A stretch of DNA of 22,357 nt. Source: a virus. A program made the translations under genes and the position numbers. The DNA is taken from positions 1-22,357 of IMG/VR virus record IMGVR_UViG_3300025168_000747, one strand, 5' to 3'. Below are positions 4,269-14,886 of the stretch, piece by piece (position 1 is the first letter of the stretch; each line of letters opens with the position of its first letter). The notes beneath the pieces are model-generated. The model was not told the origin of the DNA. It made no database searches and worked only from the letters and a program-made list of their open reading frames with translations.

Positions 4269-4671
4269 ACAACCTAGGAAATGGCATCATAGCGGTGTTT
4301 ATAATAAGGAGAAGTATATAAAAAATCGTACTGACATGAGATGTCAAATTTGTAATCAACAATATGCTACTGAGCTTTTGGATTTTCACCACCCATTAGA
4401 TAGTAATAAATTAATGGGTTTAGATGTTAACAGTTGGCGTGGTGTTAAAGGTCCAAAAAAAGAAACACTTGATGAAGCAGATAAATGTGTTATACTATGT
4501 AGTAACTGTCATAGGCTTGAGCATATTGCTTTAAGAAGAGGTGAGACATTAACCAATGACAACAAAGCTTATCGTAGATATAGAAACCACAGAGTTACCC
4601 GTTACGAAAATCTGGATGATTGGTACTCTGAGCGAGTCGGGAGAGGTCAGAAACTTTCTACCACCATTTAA
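4252..4671 (+). CDS. HNH endonuclease
   Basis: The 139-aa protein has an HNH core: CQIC (31-34), the DFHHP box (44-48), a second CSNC (83-86) and HRLEH (87-91). The four Cys would hold a structural zinc and the His residues a catalytic metal, as in HNH nicking or cutting enzymes that often act as free-standing homing endonucleases in phages. It starts inside the last codons of the primase-helicase. Its final 38 residues (from about 102, basic and low in similarity to anything) are encoded by the first 116 bases of the DNA polymerase gene in another frame. This suggests insertion between two originally adjacent replication genes, with the frame running on into the polymerase. The core is intact, so activity is possible. 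Confidence 0.85.
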   Translation: MMKSFKQPRKWHHSGVYNKEKYIKNRTDMRCQICNQQYATELLDFHHPLDSNKLMGLDVNSWRGVKGPKKETLDEADKCVILCSNCHRLEHIALRRGETLTNDNKAYRRYRNHRVTRYENLDDWYSERVGRGQKLSTTI

Positions 4672-6283
4672 CAAAGAGGAGATACAACAATGGCTAAATC
4701 AACACGAGGAAATTATTGGTCACAACTTCATAGATTTCGATTCAGTACAGTTAAACAAATTCCTAGGTATCTCGTTCGATGGGATAAAAATAGTAGACAC
4801 TTTAATTTTATCAAGGCTGTATAACCCACAGTTAGAAGGAGGACATTCCCTTAGAGCGTGGGGTGACAGATTAAATTTTCCTAAAGGAGAGCATAGTGAT
4901 TTTAATTCCTTCAGCCCTGAGATGGAACAATATTGTATCCAAGACCTTAAGGTTACACAAAAGCTGTATAATATACTTACAGATAAGCTGGCTGCTTTTG
5001 GTGATACAAGTATCGATCTGGAACATCAGGTTCAGTCAGTGGTTACACAACAAATTCAAAATGGGTGGACGTTAGATCAGAAGAAGTGTTGGGATTTATT
5101 AGCTACCCTTAAGGAACGTAAGATACAACTAGAGGATGAAGTTCATGAGAAATTTAAACCACTACCTGTATTCATTAAAGAGATACATCCTAAGTACAAG
5201 AAGAACGGAGAGCTTTCCAATGTCGGTATTAAGTTTCTTGGTGATGAGTGGCGGTCTGTATGCGGTCCTTTTAGTCGCATAGATTTACCAGAGTTTAACC
5301 TAGGTTCTCGACAACAGATAGGCAGACATTTACAATACTTTGGATGGAAGCCTGATAACTTTACAGAGAAAGGCCATGTGATTGTTGATGAAGCTATACT
5401 TTCCAAAGTGGTTGGTATTCCAGAGGCTCAGTTAATATCGGAATACTTATTAATACAGAAACGTCATGCTCAAATACAATCATGGTTAGATGCAGTCGAG
5501 GAAGATGGTAGAGTTCGGGGTTATGTTAATACAATAGGGGCTGTTACTGGTAGGATGACACACAGTAGTCCTAATATGTCTCAAGTCCCTGCAAGTTACT
5601 CACCTTATGGTACGGAATGTCGTAGCTGTTGGACTGTACCAAAAGGTAGGAAGTTAGTAGGAGCAGATGCTTCCGGAATAGAATTAAGAATGTTAGCTCA
5701 TTACATGAATGATAAGGAGTACACACATGAAATCCTCCACGGAGATATACACTCAGCAAACCAAGAGGCTGCTGGACTTACAACAAGAGACACTGCTAAA
5801 ACTTTTATCTATGCTTTTTTATACGGAGCAGGAGACAGGAAAATTGGTTCCATCGTTGGTGGTTCAGCAACAGATGGAGCAAGACTTAAGACATTATTTC
5901 TCGACAACACGCCATCTCTTAGAGACTTACGAGAAAGAGTTGAACGTGCCACTGTTAGAGGGCATCTTAGAGGCTTAGATAATCGTAAACTTATTATAAG
6001 AAGTAACCATGCTGCTCTTAATACTTTATTACAATCAGCAGCTTCAGTGGTTATGAAGAAGTCCTTGACGATACTTGATGAATACGCTAAAATATATGGT
6101 ATAGACTATAAATTTGTAGGTAATATTCATGACGAGTTTCAAGCGGAAGTTAGGGAAGACCAAGCAGAGAAATTTGGATGGCTGGCAGTGGAGTGTATAA
6201 AAGCTGCTGGTATAAAATTTAACTTACGCTGTCCCTTAGATGGCGAATACAAGGTAGGGAAAACATGGGCAGATACGCATTAG
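4556..6283 (+). CDS. Family A DNA polymerase with 3'-5' exonuclease domain
   Basis: This 575-aa replicative polymerase has an N-terminal DEDD exonuclease: VDIET (7-11, D8/E10), GHNFIDFD (55-62) and YCIQD (126-130). The polymerase domain follows, with motif A VGADASGIELR (368-378, D371), motif B R411-K415-Y419 ending in YG (423-424) and motif C HDE (525-527). Tyr419 is at the site equivalent to E. coli Pol I Phe762/T7 Tyr526; Tyr there is associated with lytic phages. It is shorter than T7 gp5 (704 aa) and I see no thioredoxin-binding insertion. The ATG at 4556 is the only sensible start, because an in-frame TAA lies at 4550-4552; GAGGTGAG precedes it. It therefore starts inside the HNH gene. 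The 3' end overlaps the next gene. Confidence 0.95.
   Translation: MTTKLIVDIETTELPVTKIWMIGTLSESGEVRNFLPPFNKEEIQQWLNQHEEIIGHNFIDFDSVQLNKFLGISFDGIKIVDTLILSRLYNPQLEGGHSLRAWGDRLNFPKGEHSDFNSFSPEMEQYCIQDLKVTQKLYNILTDKLAAFGDTSIDLEHQVQSVVTQQIQNGWTLDQKKCWDLLATLKERKIQLEDEVHEKFKPLPVFIKEIHPKYKKNGELSNVGIKFLGDEWRSVCGPFSRIDLPEFNLGSRQQIGRHLQYFGWKPDNFTEKGHVIVDEAILSKVVGIPEAQLISEYLLIQKRHAQIQSWLDAVEEDGRVRGYVNTIGAVTGRMTHSSPNMSQVPASYSPYGTECRSCWTVPKGRKLVGADASGIELRMLAHYMNDKEYTHEILHGDIHSANQEAAGLTTRDTAKTFIYAFLYGAGDRKIGSIVGGSATDGARLKTLFLDNTPSLRDLRERVERATVRGHLRGLDNRKLIIRSNHAALNTLLQSAASVVMKKSLTILDEYAKIYGIDYKFVGNIHDEFQAEVREDQAEKFGWLAVECIKAAGIKFNLRCPLDGEYKVGKTWADTH
6065..6093 (+). promoter_or_regulatory. Host sigma-70-type promoter inside the DNA polymerase gene
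   Basis: TTGACG (6065-6070), a 17-base spacer and TAAAAT (6088-6093) match 10 of 12 consensus positions. It lies about 170 bases before the PD-(D/E)XK gene at 6265 and could feed the nuclease block. It shares its -35 hexamer and spacer length with the elements at 7167 and 8814. Confidence 0.5.
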
Positions 6284-6585: not shown

Positions 6586-7459
6586 AACTTTATCAACATT
6601 AGTTGAGGATATTTATACTCTTATGAAGAACAGAAATGTTCCGGAAGGTATAGATGCCGAAGCAGAGATTGAGAAATTTGGTGAAGCTATGAAGGCTCTT
6701 ATGCGTAAAGAGTTTTTACCAAATGATAATTATCAAAATCGTAAAGGTTTACGTTTATCATCTATAGGTAAACCGGAACGTGTCCAATGGTATAGCTTTA
6801 ACAAATGGGTAGGAGAAAGAATACAACCCCATACGTTTATTAAATTTATGTATGGTAATATAATAGAAGAAATGTTGTTGTTCCTTACTCGTATGTCAGG
6901 TCATGAAGTTACTGATGAACAGAAAGTTTGTGAGGTTAAAGGAGTTAAAGGTCATATGGATTGTAAGATTGACGGAGTAACTGTCGATGTTAAATCTACA
7001 AGTACCTATGGGTTTAAGAAGTTTAAGGATGGTACACTGGCTGCTGATGATCCATTTGGTTATATACCACAGGCAAAAGCTTATGCTCATTCAGAAGGAG
7101 AACGTAAATGGGCATACTTAGCAATGGATAAACAGAATGGACATTTGTGTGTTTTGAATTATGACCTTGACGATACTAAAAATCCAATGTATAATTATTA
7201 TAAGGAAGATATAGAGGAGCTTGTAGAACGTGTAAAAAAATCCGTAGAGGGAGAAGAACTTCCCTCTCAATGCTCAAAGCCCATTCCGGATGGCAAGTCG
7301 GGCAATTTAAAACTATCTACTATATGTTCTTATTGCCAGTACAAAAAACATTGTTATCCAGAATTAAAAGCATACGCTTATTCAACCGGACCTAGATTTT
7401 TAAGTAAAGTAGTAAACCCACCTAACGTACAGGAGATTAATTTAAATGCCATCATTTGA
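6578..7459 (+). CDS. PD-(D/E)XK exonuclease of the RecB/Cas4 type with Cys cluster
   Basis: The 293-aa protein carries the RecB-family nuclease motifs in order: Glu97/98 in GNIIEEML, GHMD (125-128), VDVKS (136-140) and QAKAY (165-169). Near the C-terminus is CSYCQYKKHC (250-259) with Cys232 upstream. This C...CxxCx5C set resembles the iron-sulfur or zinc site that closes the nuclease fold in Cas4 and AddB. Such phage proteins degrade double-stranded DNA from ends and take part in recombination or host DNA recycling. It overlaps the gene upstream by eight bases and the small gene downstream by 14, and contains a promoter-like element at 7167. The C-terminal 35 residues after the cluster have no motif. 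Confidence 0.85.
   Translation: MSKTLSTLVEDIYTLMKNRNVPEGIDAEAEIEKFGEAMKALMRKEFLPNDNYQNRKGLRLSSIGKPERVQWYSFNKWVGERIQPHTFIKFMYGNIIEEMLLFLTRMSGHEVTDEQKVCEVKGVKGHMDCKIDGVTVDVKSTSTYGFKKFKDGTLAADDPFGYIPQAKAYAHSEGERKWAYLAMDKQNGHLCVLNYDLDDTKNPMYNYYKEDIEELVERVKKSVEGEELPSQCSKPIPDGKSGNLKLSTICSYCQYKKHCYPELKAYAYSTGPRFLSKVVNPPNVQEINLNAII
7167..7195 (+). promoter_or_regulatory. Host sigma-70-type promoter inside the exonuclease gene
   Basis: TTGACG (7167-7172), 17-base spacer and TATAAT (7190-7195) match 11 of 12 consensus positions. The hexamers and spacing are the same as in the element at 8814, and both have TG directly before the -10. It lies about 250 bases ahead of the small genes and endonuclease I. 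Confidence 0.6.
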
Positions 7460-7580
7460 AGTCTTACTACCGGACGGAAAACGAGTAGACATAACTAAAT
7501 CTATTAAAAAAGATACCTCAGAAAAAGGGATCACAAAAACATTAAAGGACGCTTTAAAAAAAGGGGTCAAAAATGATTGA
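7446..7580 (+). CDS. Tiny basic hypothetical protein (44 aa)
   Basis: The frame runs 45 codons from ATG 7446 to TGA 7578-7580. It overlaps the exonuclease 3' end by 14 bases and the next gene by eight. AGGAGA about 10 bases ahead serves as ribosome binding site. The product begins MPSFEVLLPDGKRVDITKSI, a likely beta hairpin, and ends in a Lys-rich helix. It has no recognisable family. The coupling on both sides and the ribosome binding site support it as a real gene. Confidence 0.6.
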   Translation: MPSFEVLLPDGKRVDITKSIKKDTSEKGITKTLKDALKKGVKND

Positions 7581-7746
7581 ATTTAAAGTAGTTACTTCTA
7601 TAAGACCGGAAAAATTTGAATCAATGATTACTATTCTTTTAAATGAAAAATGGGAGTTACATGGCGCACCTTTTGTAACTTCTGGAGGAGTCATGACACA
7701 CGCTCTTATAAGAAATATAAAAGATGTTAAGAAGTCTAGTGCCTAA
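7573..7746 (+). CDS. Small DUF1737-like protein (57 aa)
   Basis: The sequence MIEFKVVTS...FESMITILLNEKWELHG...H-A-L-I-R-N-I has the pattern of the small DUF1737-type domain: an initial strand, a helix, the W-E-L-x-G turn and a final strand. The role of that family is not known to me. It starts within the last eight bases of the preceding small gene (GTCAAAAATG) and its end overlaps endonuclease I by 23 bases. Its size, codon-perfect coupling and recognisable fold make it a likely true gene. Confidence 0.6.
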   Translation: MIEFKVVTSIRPEKFESMITILLNEKWELHGAPFVTSGGVMTHALIRNIKDVKKSSA

Positions 7747-10820: not shown

Positions 10821-10861
10821 TAGATTTAATAATATCAATACTTTTACTTTAGGAGACTTAG

Positions 10862-11962
10862 ATGCCAGCTAGAAAGCACACTCAATGGTTATCTGAACCA
10901 TCTGTTGAATACGTTGATAGTCGTATTTATAGTAGTTGGGATATATTTAATAGAGAACAGGAAAAAATTTTTAAGAAGTGTTGGATACCTTTGTGTCATG
11001 AATCAGAGTTAGTTAATCATTTAGATTTTAGAAATTCCAGTATAGCTGGTTGTAAAATTGCTATGATACGAGACAAGGAAAAAATTGTAGCCTTTCAACA
11101 TAGCTTTCAATCAATGCCTGTCAGTGGTAATCTAACGGAAGATGGTGGTTATGATCATTGGAATTGTCCTGAGTTACATTGTGAAGTTAAATTTGGTGGT
11201 ATGGTATGGGTAACACTTAATCCAGAGCCTACACAAGATGTCGAAGGATGGGCTGCCGGGGCATTTGATTGTATTAGACCAGCTTTAGACACAGAACCAC
11301 TTGAAGTATTCCACTATCACAAAGCTATTATTAAAAGTAATTACAAGTTATGGCATGACACTAATAGTGAATTTTACCATGATTATATGCACTACTTTAA
11401 TCGTACAACAGGGTTCAATGAAGAATACTTTGCTCGTAAATGCACGGGGTTTGATAACGGACACGTTAACGTAGGTAGTTTTGAAGTGCAGTATACAGCT
11501 ATGGAAAACGGAAAGGACAGAGGTGAATTAAGCTTTCCTCATTTACCCCCTAATCAATGGTATATGATTGATTTATTTCCGGGGATGAACTTTAACCTAA
11601 GAGGTAGTGCGCTCCGTACAGACGTTGTAACGCCATTAGGACCAGACAAAGTTATGATAGAGTTCAGGGGGTTTGGTCTTAAGAAAGACACACCAGAGGA
11701 ACGTAAGACACGCATAGAACACCATAATACCATATGGGGTCCAATGGGTAGAAATTTACATGAAGACTTAATAGGTATCCAAGGTCAAGGATCAAGTATG
11801 CAACCTAACTCAGAGCATCGTCATATACTACATGGTAGACATGAAGATGAAACTATCCATGACGAAGTGGGCATGAGACATTTTTATCAAGAGTGGGGTA
11901 ACTGGATGGGTATTGATCCTTCAAACCCTATGAAAGATAATGCAATCTGGGAAAATAATTAA
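10862..11962 (+). CDS. Ring-hydroxylating-oxygenase-like protein with degenerate Rieske site
   Basis: The 366-aa protein follows the alpha subunit of Rieske non-heme iron oxygenases along its length. It has an SRIY...EQEKIFKKCWIPL start, SELVNHLDFR, an iron-binding NYKLWHDTNSEFYHDYMH segment (160-177; Glu170, His173, His177) and NLHEDLIGIQGQG (298-310; Asp302 the likely third iron ligand). The Rieske domain is abnormal: where CxH is expected after AF (78-79) the sequence reads FQHSFQSM, and the second pair is CPELHC (102-107) rather than CxxH. A [2Fe-2S] Rieske cluster is therefore unlikely. The His-His spacing is also one residue shorter than usual. AGGAG precedes the ATG. It is the last gene of the arm, after the reductase. 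Phage HMO-2011 was reported, from memory, to carry a methanesulfonate monooxygenase-like gene of this superfamily. The substrate is unknown. Confidence 0.8.
   Translation: MPARKHTQWLSEPSVEYVDSRIYSSWDIFNREQEKIFKKCWIPLCHESELVNHLDFRNSSIAGCKIAMIRDKEKIVAFQHSFQSMPVSGNLTEDGGYDHWNCPELHCEVKFGGMVWVTLNPEPTQDVEGWAAGAFDCIRPALDTEPLEVFHYHKAIIKSNYKLWHDTNSEFYHDYMHYFNRTTGFNEEYFARKCTGFDNGHVNVGSFEVQYTAMENGKDRGELSFPHLPPNQWYMIDLFPGMNFNLRGSALRTDVVTPLGPDKVMIEFRGFGLKKDTPEERKTRIEHHNTIWGPMGRNLHEDLIGIQGQGSSMQPNSEHRHILHGRHEDETIHDEVGMRHFYQEWGNWMGIDPSNPMKDNAIWENN
11959..11962. other. Convergent gene junction with overlapping stop codons
   Basis: The + strand oxygenase-like gene stops with TAA at 11960-11962 and the - strand virion gene stops with TAA whose complement is 11959-11961. 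The palindrome TTAA serves both. No intergenic space and no convincing intrinsic terminator hairpin with a T-run is visible around it, although the two arms of the genome meet here. Confidence 0.85.
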
Positions 11963-14886
11963 AAATCTTTATCTGATAATTTTTCGTTATATTTTTCAGC
12001 CCCACCTAAAAACCAATGGTACATAATAGTTCCTGCTATTGGTACGTTTTTAACTTGTTTTTGTATTTTTTCATAATCAGTTTCTTCTTGAACAAGTTCT
12101 GATGCAATTTTTCCAACACTTTCAAGTAAAGGATTTGCTGGAGATATATTTCTTAGCCCAGCTTCTAATATTTTTCCATCTGATATAAGTTTTTCCGTTC
12201 CATATTTAGTTAACCCATAAACTCCTAAAAATGACCATACTAAATTTTCAGGAATATCATCTATCCTTACATCCTTACCTAATATTAAATCTTTAACAGT
12301 TTGTGTACCTAAGTTTGCTCCGGATAAATAAGCTGCAAGTTTAGTCATATCTTTAACAGCTTTTATTTTATGTCCCATCCCTTTTTTAGATGCTTCTTGA
12401 ATTATATCTCTACGAACAACATCTATTTGTTTAAGACCAAAAGATTTAAGCATATAAAATACTCTACCATCTTTTGATTCTAAATATTTTGGAGGCATTT
12501 CACTTAAAGAAATTGGTTGAACGTCAGACAATTCATTAAACAATAATAACTTTACATTTTCACTCATTTTCCCTGCTTGAAGATCAGCTATAAGAGGTTC
12601 TGTATCATTTCCAAAAACTTTACCCCATTTTTCCTTTAATTTTTTTATTCCTTTTTCTGATTTAACTAGTTTTTTATTTTTTATTAGCGCAGCATTAATA
12701 TATGTTTCCTTACCAAATTTATCAACTGATCTAAACCCTGAAGCTTTAAACAATTTACTTAAACCATTTGCAAATTTACTAGGATTTCCCATTTCCGTAG
12801 AAATTACATTATCTAATCCTAAATCAACTAATCTAACTTTTGGTCCTGAAAGATTAAAAACTTCAGGCATTGCTGCTTTTAATGTAGGTTTCAATCCATT
12901 TTTAAAACCAGATAAACCTAAATCCCCTACTTGTGTTACAGCAGCAATAGGGTTAGCTATTGTTCCAGCATACCCTACATCTTTAAAAGCTCTGGACCAC
13001 TGACTTACAGATTGTTCACCTTTAACAAATCTTGCTTCTAATAATGATTGAAGTTTTGTTTGGTCAGCATTATTAATATCAGGAAGTTCTTTTTTAATCC
13101 AAGCTCCGATACTATCTTCCGTATCTATATCAAAACCCTTACCAAAAAATTTTGATCTTTCAATATTATTAATTGCACTTCTAACATATTTTTGTAAAGA
13201 TTCAGCAGGGGTATCATAGAATTGTAAAAGATCATCTGTTACATTATCTATTGTTCTTCCTTTAATAAAACGAGGAGTATTCCCTGTTACATCTACTTTA
13301 TAACCTCTAACTGCATTATTTAAAATTTCATTTTTTATTTCCGGTTTTATATTTGTTGGAGTTATGTTTTTACTTTTAGCGTAGGCTTCTAATTGTTGTT
13401 CATAAAAACCTCTACGCTCAGACCCTAAAGCATTTGTTAATCCGTCAATATCATTTACTGATCTAGGAAAATAATTTTTTATTTTATTTGGATTTATTTT
13501 ATAAACACCTTCTAATTCTTCACCTAAATTTTTTAAAACAGGTATAACTTTATTAAAACTATCTGATATATTTATTACTCTTGAATTGCCTGTGAGTGTT
13601 ACATCTACTGTTATTTCCTTTGCATTATTTTTTAAAATATTTGAAACCTCATCAAATCTTCCGTTAGATAAATGAAGTGCAACATCTCTTAAACTTCGAT
13701 CATCTAATGTTTTATGTAAATTTTCCGCAAAATCTTCAATTTCCAAAAGAGAATTTTGAGTTTTTACAGCAACATTGGATTCAAATTTTCTTAATTTTCC
13801 AAAAATAGGAATAGAAATGTTTCTAATTTGAGTAGAAAGAATACCTAAATATTCATCTAATGTTTCACTGTGAAAACGAGAAACAGCACTATCTTCTGTT
13901 ACTGCATGATCTGCATTTGTTTTTGATAAATCTACAGTTCGAGCGTAAGGTTTTTGACCCATTGCTTGATATGCTCTTTGTACTTGTTTTTCAGTATAAC
14001 CTAATTCTGTAGCAATTTTAGGAATATCTTCTTGGGTAACTCCATTGCCTAATTTGTTAAGTTCATCCATTCTGTTATTCATATTATTTACAACTTTAGA
14101 AGCACTTTTTTGAACTATTTTATCAATACCAAATTTAGCTGCTGGCCCAATTATAGCACCACCTCCTGTATATAAAGCAGCTTTTGTTTTATCTATAGGT
14201 TTGTTTCTATTTAAATCTTCAAGAAGACTAGTAACTAATCCCAATCCCCCTGATACCGCAGCTACTTTTTTATATGTTTGTCCAACAGGTATTAAACTTC
14301 CGGGATCAATTACTGCTCCGGCAACACTTCCTGTTTGATAAGCTAAACTATCTTTATCAGGTTCAAAACCAGCAGGAAATTCTTCTTTTAGTCTTTTAAT
14401 TCTTTCTCCAAAAATTATATTTCTACGTTCTTCAGGCGAAGCGTCTTTAAAATCTGGTCCATATGTTTCACCGGGAGCATCGTAAGTAAATCCAAGAGTA
14501 CCCGGAGAACGTGAAAAATCAAACCCAAGTCTTCCTAAATATGGAGTTAAAGGAAGTATAGATTCTAAATAATTTCCTAATGCAAAAACTGGACCTTCTA
14601 ATTCTTCATATCCATAATCTAAATTTTGTAAAGTAGTTGGTTCTTTTGTTCTAACTAATTCACCATCAATTATACGATCACCTACGTTTGCTTTTTCTTG
14701 TTGTAAAAAAGGAGTTGCATTTATATTTTCCTGAGAAATTACAATACCTTTTTCTACATCTCGTTCCTTACTAAAAACTCTAATAAATTCACCATCAACA
14801 ACTTTATCCCCCGGCAAAGCTTTAGATTCCTTAAGAAAAGGAGTAGCATTAATTTGTTCTGGACTAAGAATAATTTGTTCAGCCAT
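11959..14886 (-). CDS. Large putative internal virion (DNA ejection) protein (975 aa)
   Basis: I do not recognise a precise family. The protein begins with two 34-residue copies of a module containing INATPFL...GD...DGE-x-V/I-R (residues 5-38 and 48-81). A small Gly-rich segment follows, then long helical, charged stretches. The last ~130 residues contain helices with mixed hydrophobic character (LAAYLSGANLG, NLVWSFLGVYGL) that could insert in membrane. Its size, helical nature and place at the end of the tail/virion operon fit the large core proteins that short-tailed phages eject ahead of their DNA (T7 gp16-like in role). I see no transglycosylase or polymerase motif. ATG 14884-14886 lies nine bases after the previous stop, with weak purine-rich signals. 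Confidence 0.6.
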   Translation of the reverse strand: MAEQIILSPEQINATPFLKESKALPGDKVVDGEFIRVFSKERDVEKGIVISQENINATPFLQQEKANVGDRIIDGELVRTKEPTTLQNLDYGYEELEGPVFALGNYLESILPLTPYLGRLGFDFSRSPGTLGFTYDAPGETYGPDFKDASPEERRNIIFGERIKRLKEEFPAGFEPDKDSLAYQTGSVAGAVIDPGSLIPVGQTYKKVAAVSGGLGLVTSLLEDLNRNKPIDKTKAALYTGGGAIIGPAAKFGIDKIVQKSASKVVNNMNNRMDELNKLGNGVTQEDIPKIATELGYTEKQVQRAYQAMGQKPYARTVDLSKTNADHAVTEDSAVSRFHSETLDEYLGILSTQIRNISIPIFGKLRKFESNVAVKTQNSLLEIEDFAENLHKTLDDRSLRDVALHLSNGRFDEVSNILKNNAKEITVDVTLTGNSRVINISDSFNKVIPVLKNLGEELEGVYKINPNKIKNYFPRSVNDIDGLTNALGSERRGFYEQQLEAYAKSKNITPTNIKPEIKNEILNNAVRGYKVDVTGNTPRFIKGRTIDNVTDDLLQFYDTPAESLQKYVRSAINNIERSKFFGKGFDIDTEDSIGAWIKKELPDINNADQTKLQSLLEARFVKGEQSVSQWSRAFKDVGYAGTIANPIAAVTQVGDLGLSGFKNGLKPTLKAAMPEVFNLSGPKVRLVDLGLDNVISTEMGNPSKFANGLSKLFKASGFRSVDKFGKETYINAALIKNKKLVKSEKGIKKLKEKWGKVFGNDTEPLIADLQAGKMSENVKLLLFNELSDVQPISLSEMPPKYLESKDGRVFYMLKSFGLKQIDVVRRDIIQEASKKGMGHKIKAVKDMTKLAAYLSGANLGTQTVKDLILGKDVRIDDIPENLVWSFLGVYGLTKYGTEKLISDGKILEAGLRNISPANPLLESVGKIASELVQEETDYEKIQKQVKNVPIAGTIMYHWFLGGAEKYNEKLSDKDF
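14644..14874 (-). repeat. Two-copy N-terminal module in the large virion protein
   Basis: Codons 5-38 (14773-14874) and 48-81 (14644-14745) encode two related 34-residue units sharing NATPFL, a GD pair nine residues on, and a DGE-hydrophobic-x-R end. Protein similarity is clear while the DNA has diverged, so the duplication is not recent. Confidence 0.75.

Follow-up and report, generated by a model that had tools for sequence, protein, structure and literature searches.

The virus fragment that we analysed (the window: 22,357 nt, IMG/VR record IMGVR_UViG_3300025168_000747, positions 1-22,357) encodes a protein resembling methanesulfonate monooxygenase MsmA that has lost its Rieske cluster and kept its mononuclear iron site. 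Its sequence suggests that the protein, MsmA', is the iron-bearing half of a methanesulfonate-monooxygenase-type Rieske oxygenase. SAR116 bacteria that have this half also encode a complementary protein in which the electron-carrying cluster survives and the iron site is gone, so the phage product probably works as part of a host enzyme; we think it likely that MsmA' is the catalytic iron half of a split methanesulfonate-type oxygenase and that the phage borrows the Rieske-reductase, beta subunit, and ferredoxin of its host. With somewhat less assurance, we also propose that MsmA' is one chain of a two-part Rieske oxygenase that has degenerated reciprocally, and that abundant marine phages insert their version into the enzyme of the host.

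The msmA' gene follows a ribonucleotide reductase gene, with genes for MazG, a Cas4-type exonuclease, DNA polymerase A, and a primase-helicase further upstream in the window. Its 3' end abuts a converging 975-aa ORF (11962-14886, minus strand), perhaps a large virion protein, which has no PHROG family and no tblastn match among 50,697 phage records. The features of the gene are as follows:

10851..10855, plus strand: AGGAG, ribosome-binding-site-like, shortly before the msmA' ATG (direct reading)
10862..11962, plus strand: msmA', Rieske-less MsmA-like gene; intact ATG frame, 366 aa
11093..11173, plus strand: remnant of the Rieske cluster segment, residues 78-104; no cluster ligands (from alignments)
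11294..11896, plus strand: catalytic (mononuclear iron) domain, residues 145-345; PF00848, about 75% identical to intact MsmA
11369..11371, plus strand: Glu170, at the bridging-glutamate position (CntA E205); invariant in the family
11378..11392, plus strand: His173 and His177, iron ligands (HxxxH); invariant in the family
11765..11767, plus strand: Asp302, iron ligand; invariant in the family

Alignments reveal what happened to the Rieske cluster segment. The interval from FLN to LRCEV runs to about 70 residues in intact MsmA versus 27 in the window protein, and all four [2Fe-2S] ligands are absent; no CxH...CxxH motif occurs anywhere in the window. The earlier note had read CPELHC as a degenerate CxxH pair, but these residues simply lie at the edge of the deletion. 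Nor is the cluster rebuilt from other Cys and His residues, a possibility raised at the time: C64, H80, C102, H106, and C107 are not conserved across the phage family. A Pfam comparison matches the catalytic domain (PF00848, residues 147-350, E 8e-7) and not the Rieske domain (PF00355); PHROGs holds no family for this protein. Mean identity to intact bacterial MsmA is 75% over residues 145-345 and 23% over the cluster segment. Thus, of the features of MsmA, the catalytic domain with ExxHxxxH...D is present and CxH-X26-CxxH is absent; of those of a Rieske oxygenase alpha subunit, the fold, the 2-His-1-carboxylate site, and the bridging acidic residue are present and a Rieske domain on the same chain is absent.

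The alpha-subunit layout proposed for the protein is confirmed by its predicted structure (pLDDT 72): residues 12-351 match NagG, BphA1, and TPADO at Z 26-27 (27.2 for the whole-subunit match to NagG), with a low-confidence stretch at residues 169-214, around the iron site. The iron ligands named previously hold up for H173, H177, and D302. E170, however, is not a ligand; it corresponds to E205 of CntA, a glutamate located three positions ahead of the first histidine ligand of the iron. E205 forms the bridge to the Rieske cluster on the adjacent subunit and is essential for electron transfer between subunits (PMC7948474). The HxxxH spacing is no oddity either, given that every intact MsmA examined has the same ExxHxxxH.

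In Rieske oxygenases generally, each iron sits about 12 A away from a cluster carried by the adjacent subunit (PMC12445004). The retention of E170 is hard to explain if the protein never meets a Rieske cluster. The claim that electron delivery by a [2Fe-2S] cluster is impossible does not follow, because the cluster that feeds the iron lies on a neighbouring subunit and because SAR116 bacteria encode an MsmA that keeps its cluster and has no iron site (see below).

Throughout the lineage, the Rieske cluster is missing and the iron site is kept; this is not a local error. We scanned viral contigs twice, obtaining 55 and 80 partly overlapping loci (the second scan gave more than 500 confirmed relatives, of which the best 80 were taken). 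Among the matches listed, 0 of 120 viral homologue proteins contain CxH...CxxH, and E170, H173, H177, and D302 (EHHD) are kept in all 113 copies that span both sites, the other seven being cut by contig ends; these counts are of loci rather than independent viruses, because a contig is in some cases represented by several overlapping pieces. The consistent pattern of missing cluster ligands and kept iron ligands is what the earlier note had proposed to test for in viral relatives, and the same loss in more than 100 viral copies rules out a local mutation or sequencing error. A single Rieske-like motif in the viral loci, in L041, looks like chance.

The gene is also maintained, as its intact frame had suggested. 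Within the phage family, conservation reaches 99% at residues 161-180 and about 65% at residues 61-100. For moderately diverged viral pairs, dN/dS is 0.04-0.09 over the whole protein and 0.01-0.07 over the catalytic part; comparisons with the window copy itself are near synonymous saturation. The absence of the four ligands from the MsmA-like proteins of phage HMO-2011 and of viromes was reported in 2015, together with the finding that SAR116 strain IMCC1322 has two proteins annotated as MsmA and that the motif is present in just one (PMC4433239).

We scanned about 85,000 genomes, recovering intact MsmA genes as well as SAR116-type alphaproteobacterial Rieske-less genes of the phage kind. Intact MsmA proteins carry both the Rieske motif and EHHD in 63 cases, and one more (L134) has an X at the last Rieske ligand; Rieske-less genes on bacterial contigs lack the motif and keep EHHD. 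In nine of the SAR116-type loci fetched, an ORF of about 800 aa lies some 2.3 kb upstream of the Rieske-less gene. The N-terminal part of this fusion is an MsmA with a perfect CxH-X26-CxxH, whose former catalytic domain has neither the iron-site motif nor the Asp; an FAD/NAD(P) ferredoxin reductase resembling MsmD makes up the rest. The Pfam domains of the fusion are Rieske, Pyr_redox_2, and Reductase_C. With copies fetched from further genomes included, all four Rieske ligands are found in 14 of 14 fusions and the iron-site motif in none of the 14, with 97% conservation in the Rieske segment and 49% in the former catalytic domain. In the AlphaFold model of the fusion, confidence is low over the Rieske region (pLDDT about 35). 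Genes for an MsmB-like protein and a Rieske ferredoxin (msmB and msmC) usually follow the fusion gene.

The setting of one such locus, L062, fits conversion of methanesulfonate to sulfite and formaldehyde, judging by gene content: a divergent ABC transporter lies upstream, and LysR, a TauE sulfite exporter, PanB, formate-THF ligase, and FolD lie downstream. The same locus contains an unlabelled ORF of about 275 aa (6921-7742, plus strand) without a Pfam match, with relatives in L087, L088, L092, and L104. We considered it as an assembly factor specific to the split enzyme, an idea weakened by its presence in intact as well as split msm loci. At another locus (L211, on contig C5 of genome G009), the fusion appears as two adjacent ORFs of 341 and 491 codons, through a frameshift, a sequencing error, or natural fission; the split version shows the same pattern, with the Rieske motif kept and the iron site lost.

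To follow the two genes across genomes, we took 61 genomes (species) from the family of one SAR116 genome. The Rieske-less gene is present in 12 of the 61 and the fusion in the same 12, outright in 11 and, in the twelfth (G012, locus L074), as a C-terminal fragment at a contig end; the remaining 49 have neither, their matches being to the reductase part only. No intact MsmA was found in the 12 carriers. The naive hypergeometric probability of this pairing is 6e-13, although these genomes are related, mostly draft, and so not independent events. The two genes occur together even in genomes that place them several kb from each other or on separate contigs (G004, G009, G030, and G010). Outside the family list, both halves also occur in L071, L075, and L080, and 385 genomes drawn evenly from the class yielded only three good matches to the window protein, all with both halves. 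L061 starts inside the operon, so that the fusion would be cut off there, and we read L057 and L058, from their neighbours, as phage-like contigs in metagenome bins. G030 is probably the HMO-2011 host IMCC1322, with one MsmA that has the motif and one that does not, as published (PMC4433239); if so, the phage-host pair HMO-2011/IMCC1322 holds both halves.

Viruses carry the iron half only. When the fusion was searched against viral contigs and against phage records, among them the complete HMO-2011 genome, the only matches were unrelated reductases or oxygenases and MsmA' itself. Linked msmB, msmC, and msmD genes are present in SAR116 loci and absent from viral ones (the window being a fragment), with no msmB or msmC near the viral copies. 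On these scans of viral contigs and phage records, and on the lack of a Rieske motif in the window, we reject a phage-encoded Rieske partner.

The reciprocal loss suggests a split oxygenase like NdmC/NdmD. From the complementary losses, domain make-up, co-occurrence, and constraint that the sequences display, we infer a ring assembly, an electron path, a substrate, and a benefit to the phage. MsmA' and fusion chains would assemble in the usual head-to-tail ring. Electrons would pass from NADH to the FAD domain, then (by way of the ferredoxin MsmC) to the Rieske cluster of the fusion, and through E170 to the MsmA' iron, where O2 would oxidise methanesulfonate (or a closely related sulfonate), yielding formaldehyde and sulfite. 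During infection, the phage would bring its own MsmA', with the Rieske-reductase, beta subunit, and ferredoxin coming from the host; keeping or boosting sulfonate oxidation in this way could supply one-carbon units and reduced sulfur.

Besides the relatedness of the genomes behind the co-occurrence and the low model confidence noted above, further observations weigh against the split model: the window DNA polymerase A (4556-6283, plus strand) is nearest, at 50-52%, to those of the Pelagibacter phages HTVC103P, HTVC104P, and HTVC115P, and the window clade is sister to the group that contains most other copies, those of SAR116 among them. A search of the phage records found no match to the MsmA-like protein in these three phages. 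A host without the fusion would be allowed if the Rieske-less protein took its electrons directly from MsmC or a generic host ferredoxin, with no need of the fusion. The SAR116 operon does encode a Rieske ferredoxin, of 133 aa, and a bridging glutamate would suit any docked Rieske cluster. But direct transfer accounts neither for the near-invariant Rieske segment and lost iron site of the fusion nor for the finding that, of the 61 genomes, the 12 with the Rieske-less gene are the very ones that have the fusion, and we consider direct transfer improbable, if the most serious of the competing explanations.

The earlier note had left several roles open, of which partnership with a host oxygenase is now favored; a stand-alone cofactor-poor enzyme, a binding protein, and a decoy are less likely given the bridging glutamate and the 75% of catalytic-domain residues retained. 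That same identity to intact MsmA makes mixed rings plausible, and a decoy MsmA' could enter the rings of a host's intact MsmA, break the electron relay, and shut the oxygenase down. Yet bacteria keep the same Rieske-less gene themselves, in several genomes inside the msm operon, the 12 family carriers have no intact MsmA to poison, and the iron-site residues are strongly constrained, so that we hold this to be very unlikely. We give an equally small chance to a role in binding methanesulfonate, or to an iron enzyme with new chemistry that needs no Rieske cluster. Such roles would suit an intact iron site on a protein with no cluster of its own, but not active-site surroundings that match those of intact MsmA, bridging glutamate included, nor the existence in SAR116 of a dedicated Rieske-bearing MsmA without an iron site. 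Finally, the deletion of part of a domain could point to a gene that was acquired and is now decaying, or to a sequencing error confined to this copy; because more than 100 viral copies and about 20 bacterial ones show the same loss while their frames stay open, and dN/dS is as low as reported above, we regard this explanation as refuted.

Several known proteins help to place the split oxygenase that we favor. The best annotated relative of the window protein is the 'methanesulfonate monooxygenase' of the SAR116 phage HMO-2011 (GU557055, ADW08429), 60.5% identical over 361 residues, with the same missing cluster and the same iron site. The two phages differ in gene position, near lysozyme and terminase genes in HMO-2011 and after ribonucleotide reductase in the window, and in their DNA polymerases, that of the window being closest to Pelagibacter phages. 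Intact MsmA has the same ExxHxxxH...D site in its similar catalytic domain; the window protein differs in the deleted cluster segment and so is not self-sufficient. The second, Rieske-less MsmA of SAR116 belongs to the same clade, is about 60% identical, and has the same kind of deletion, but it is chromosomal and adjoins, or shares a genome with, the fusion, msmB, and msmC.

NdmC, too, is an oxygenase that has iron but lacks the Rieske cluster. The corresponding domain is part of the reductase NdmD, an arrangement presented as the first in which a Rieske domain has parted from its oxygenase and joined the reductase (PMC4408171). NdmC differs in subfamily and substrate, and NdmCDE, a caffeine N7-demethylase, needs the GST-like NdmE. 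Of the features of the NdmC/NdmD type, the SAR116 system has both the cluster-less iron subunit and a Rieske domain on the reductase; the virus has the iron subunit only. In SAR116, unlike NdmC/NdmD, both chains come from the same alpha subunit, the Rieske partner being an MsmA whose own iron site is dead. We found no phage version of an NdmC/NdmD-type oxygenase described in the literature searched, and no mention of the fusion partner in the openly available papers covered. The fusion partner of the Rieske-less MsmA is what appears to be new here, the missing motif itself having been published in 2015.

The HMO-2011 gene has been cited as an example of phage influence on sulfur cycling in the ocean, and its lack of a Rieske motif has been on record, unexplained, since at least 2015. 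The complementary losses would offer an answer: the phage gene encodes half an enzyme, and the other half is in the host. If true, this would be the second case of a Rieske oxygenase with its cluster on the reductase, the benefit to the phage would be tied to host genotype, and corrections would be due in surveys that treat msmA of viruses or SAR116 as a complete methanesulfonate monooxygenase.

In our phylogeny, the viral and bacterial Rieske-less genes form one clade (100/99 support), with only L050 apart. A tree that separates viral from bacterial copies is rejected (p-AU 0.017), the SAR116 genes nesting among viral ones. The window clade is sister to most other Rieske-less copies, including those of SAR116, so the host of the window phage could lie outside the known SAR116 bacteria. 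The nesting of the SAR116 loci L059-L086 within viral diversity may reflect phage-to-host transfer or repeated exchange. L050 (5001-6089) encodes a divergent Rieske-less relative, 49% identical, with a remnant of different shape and a very long, unplaced branch. It is possibly an independent Rieske loss; a tree holding all Rieske-less genes together, L050 included, is also acceptable (p-AU 0.35).
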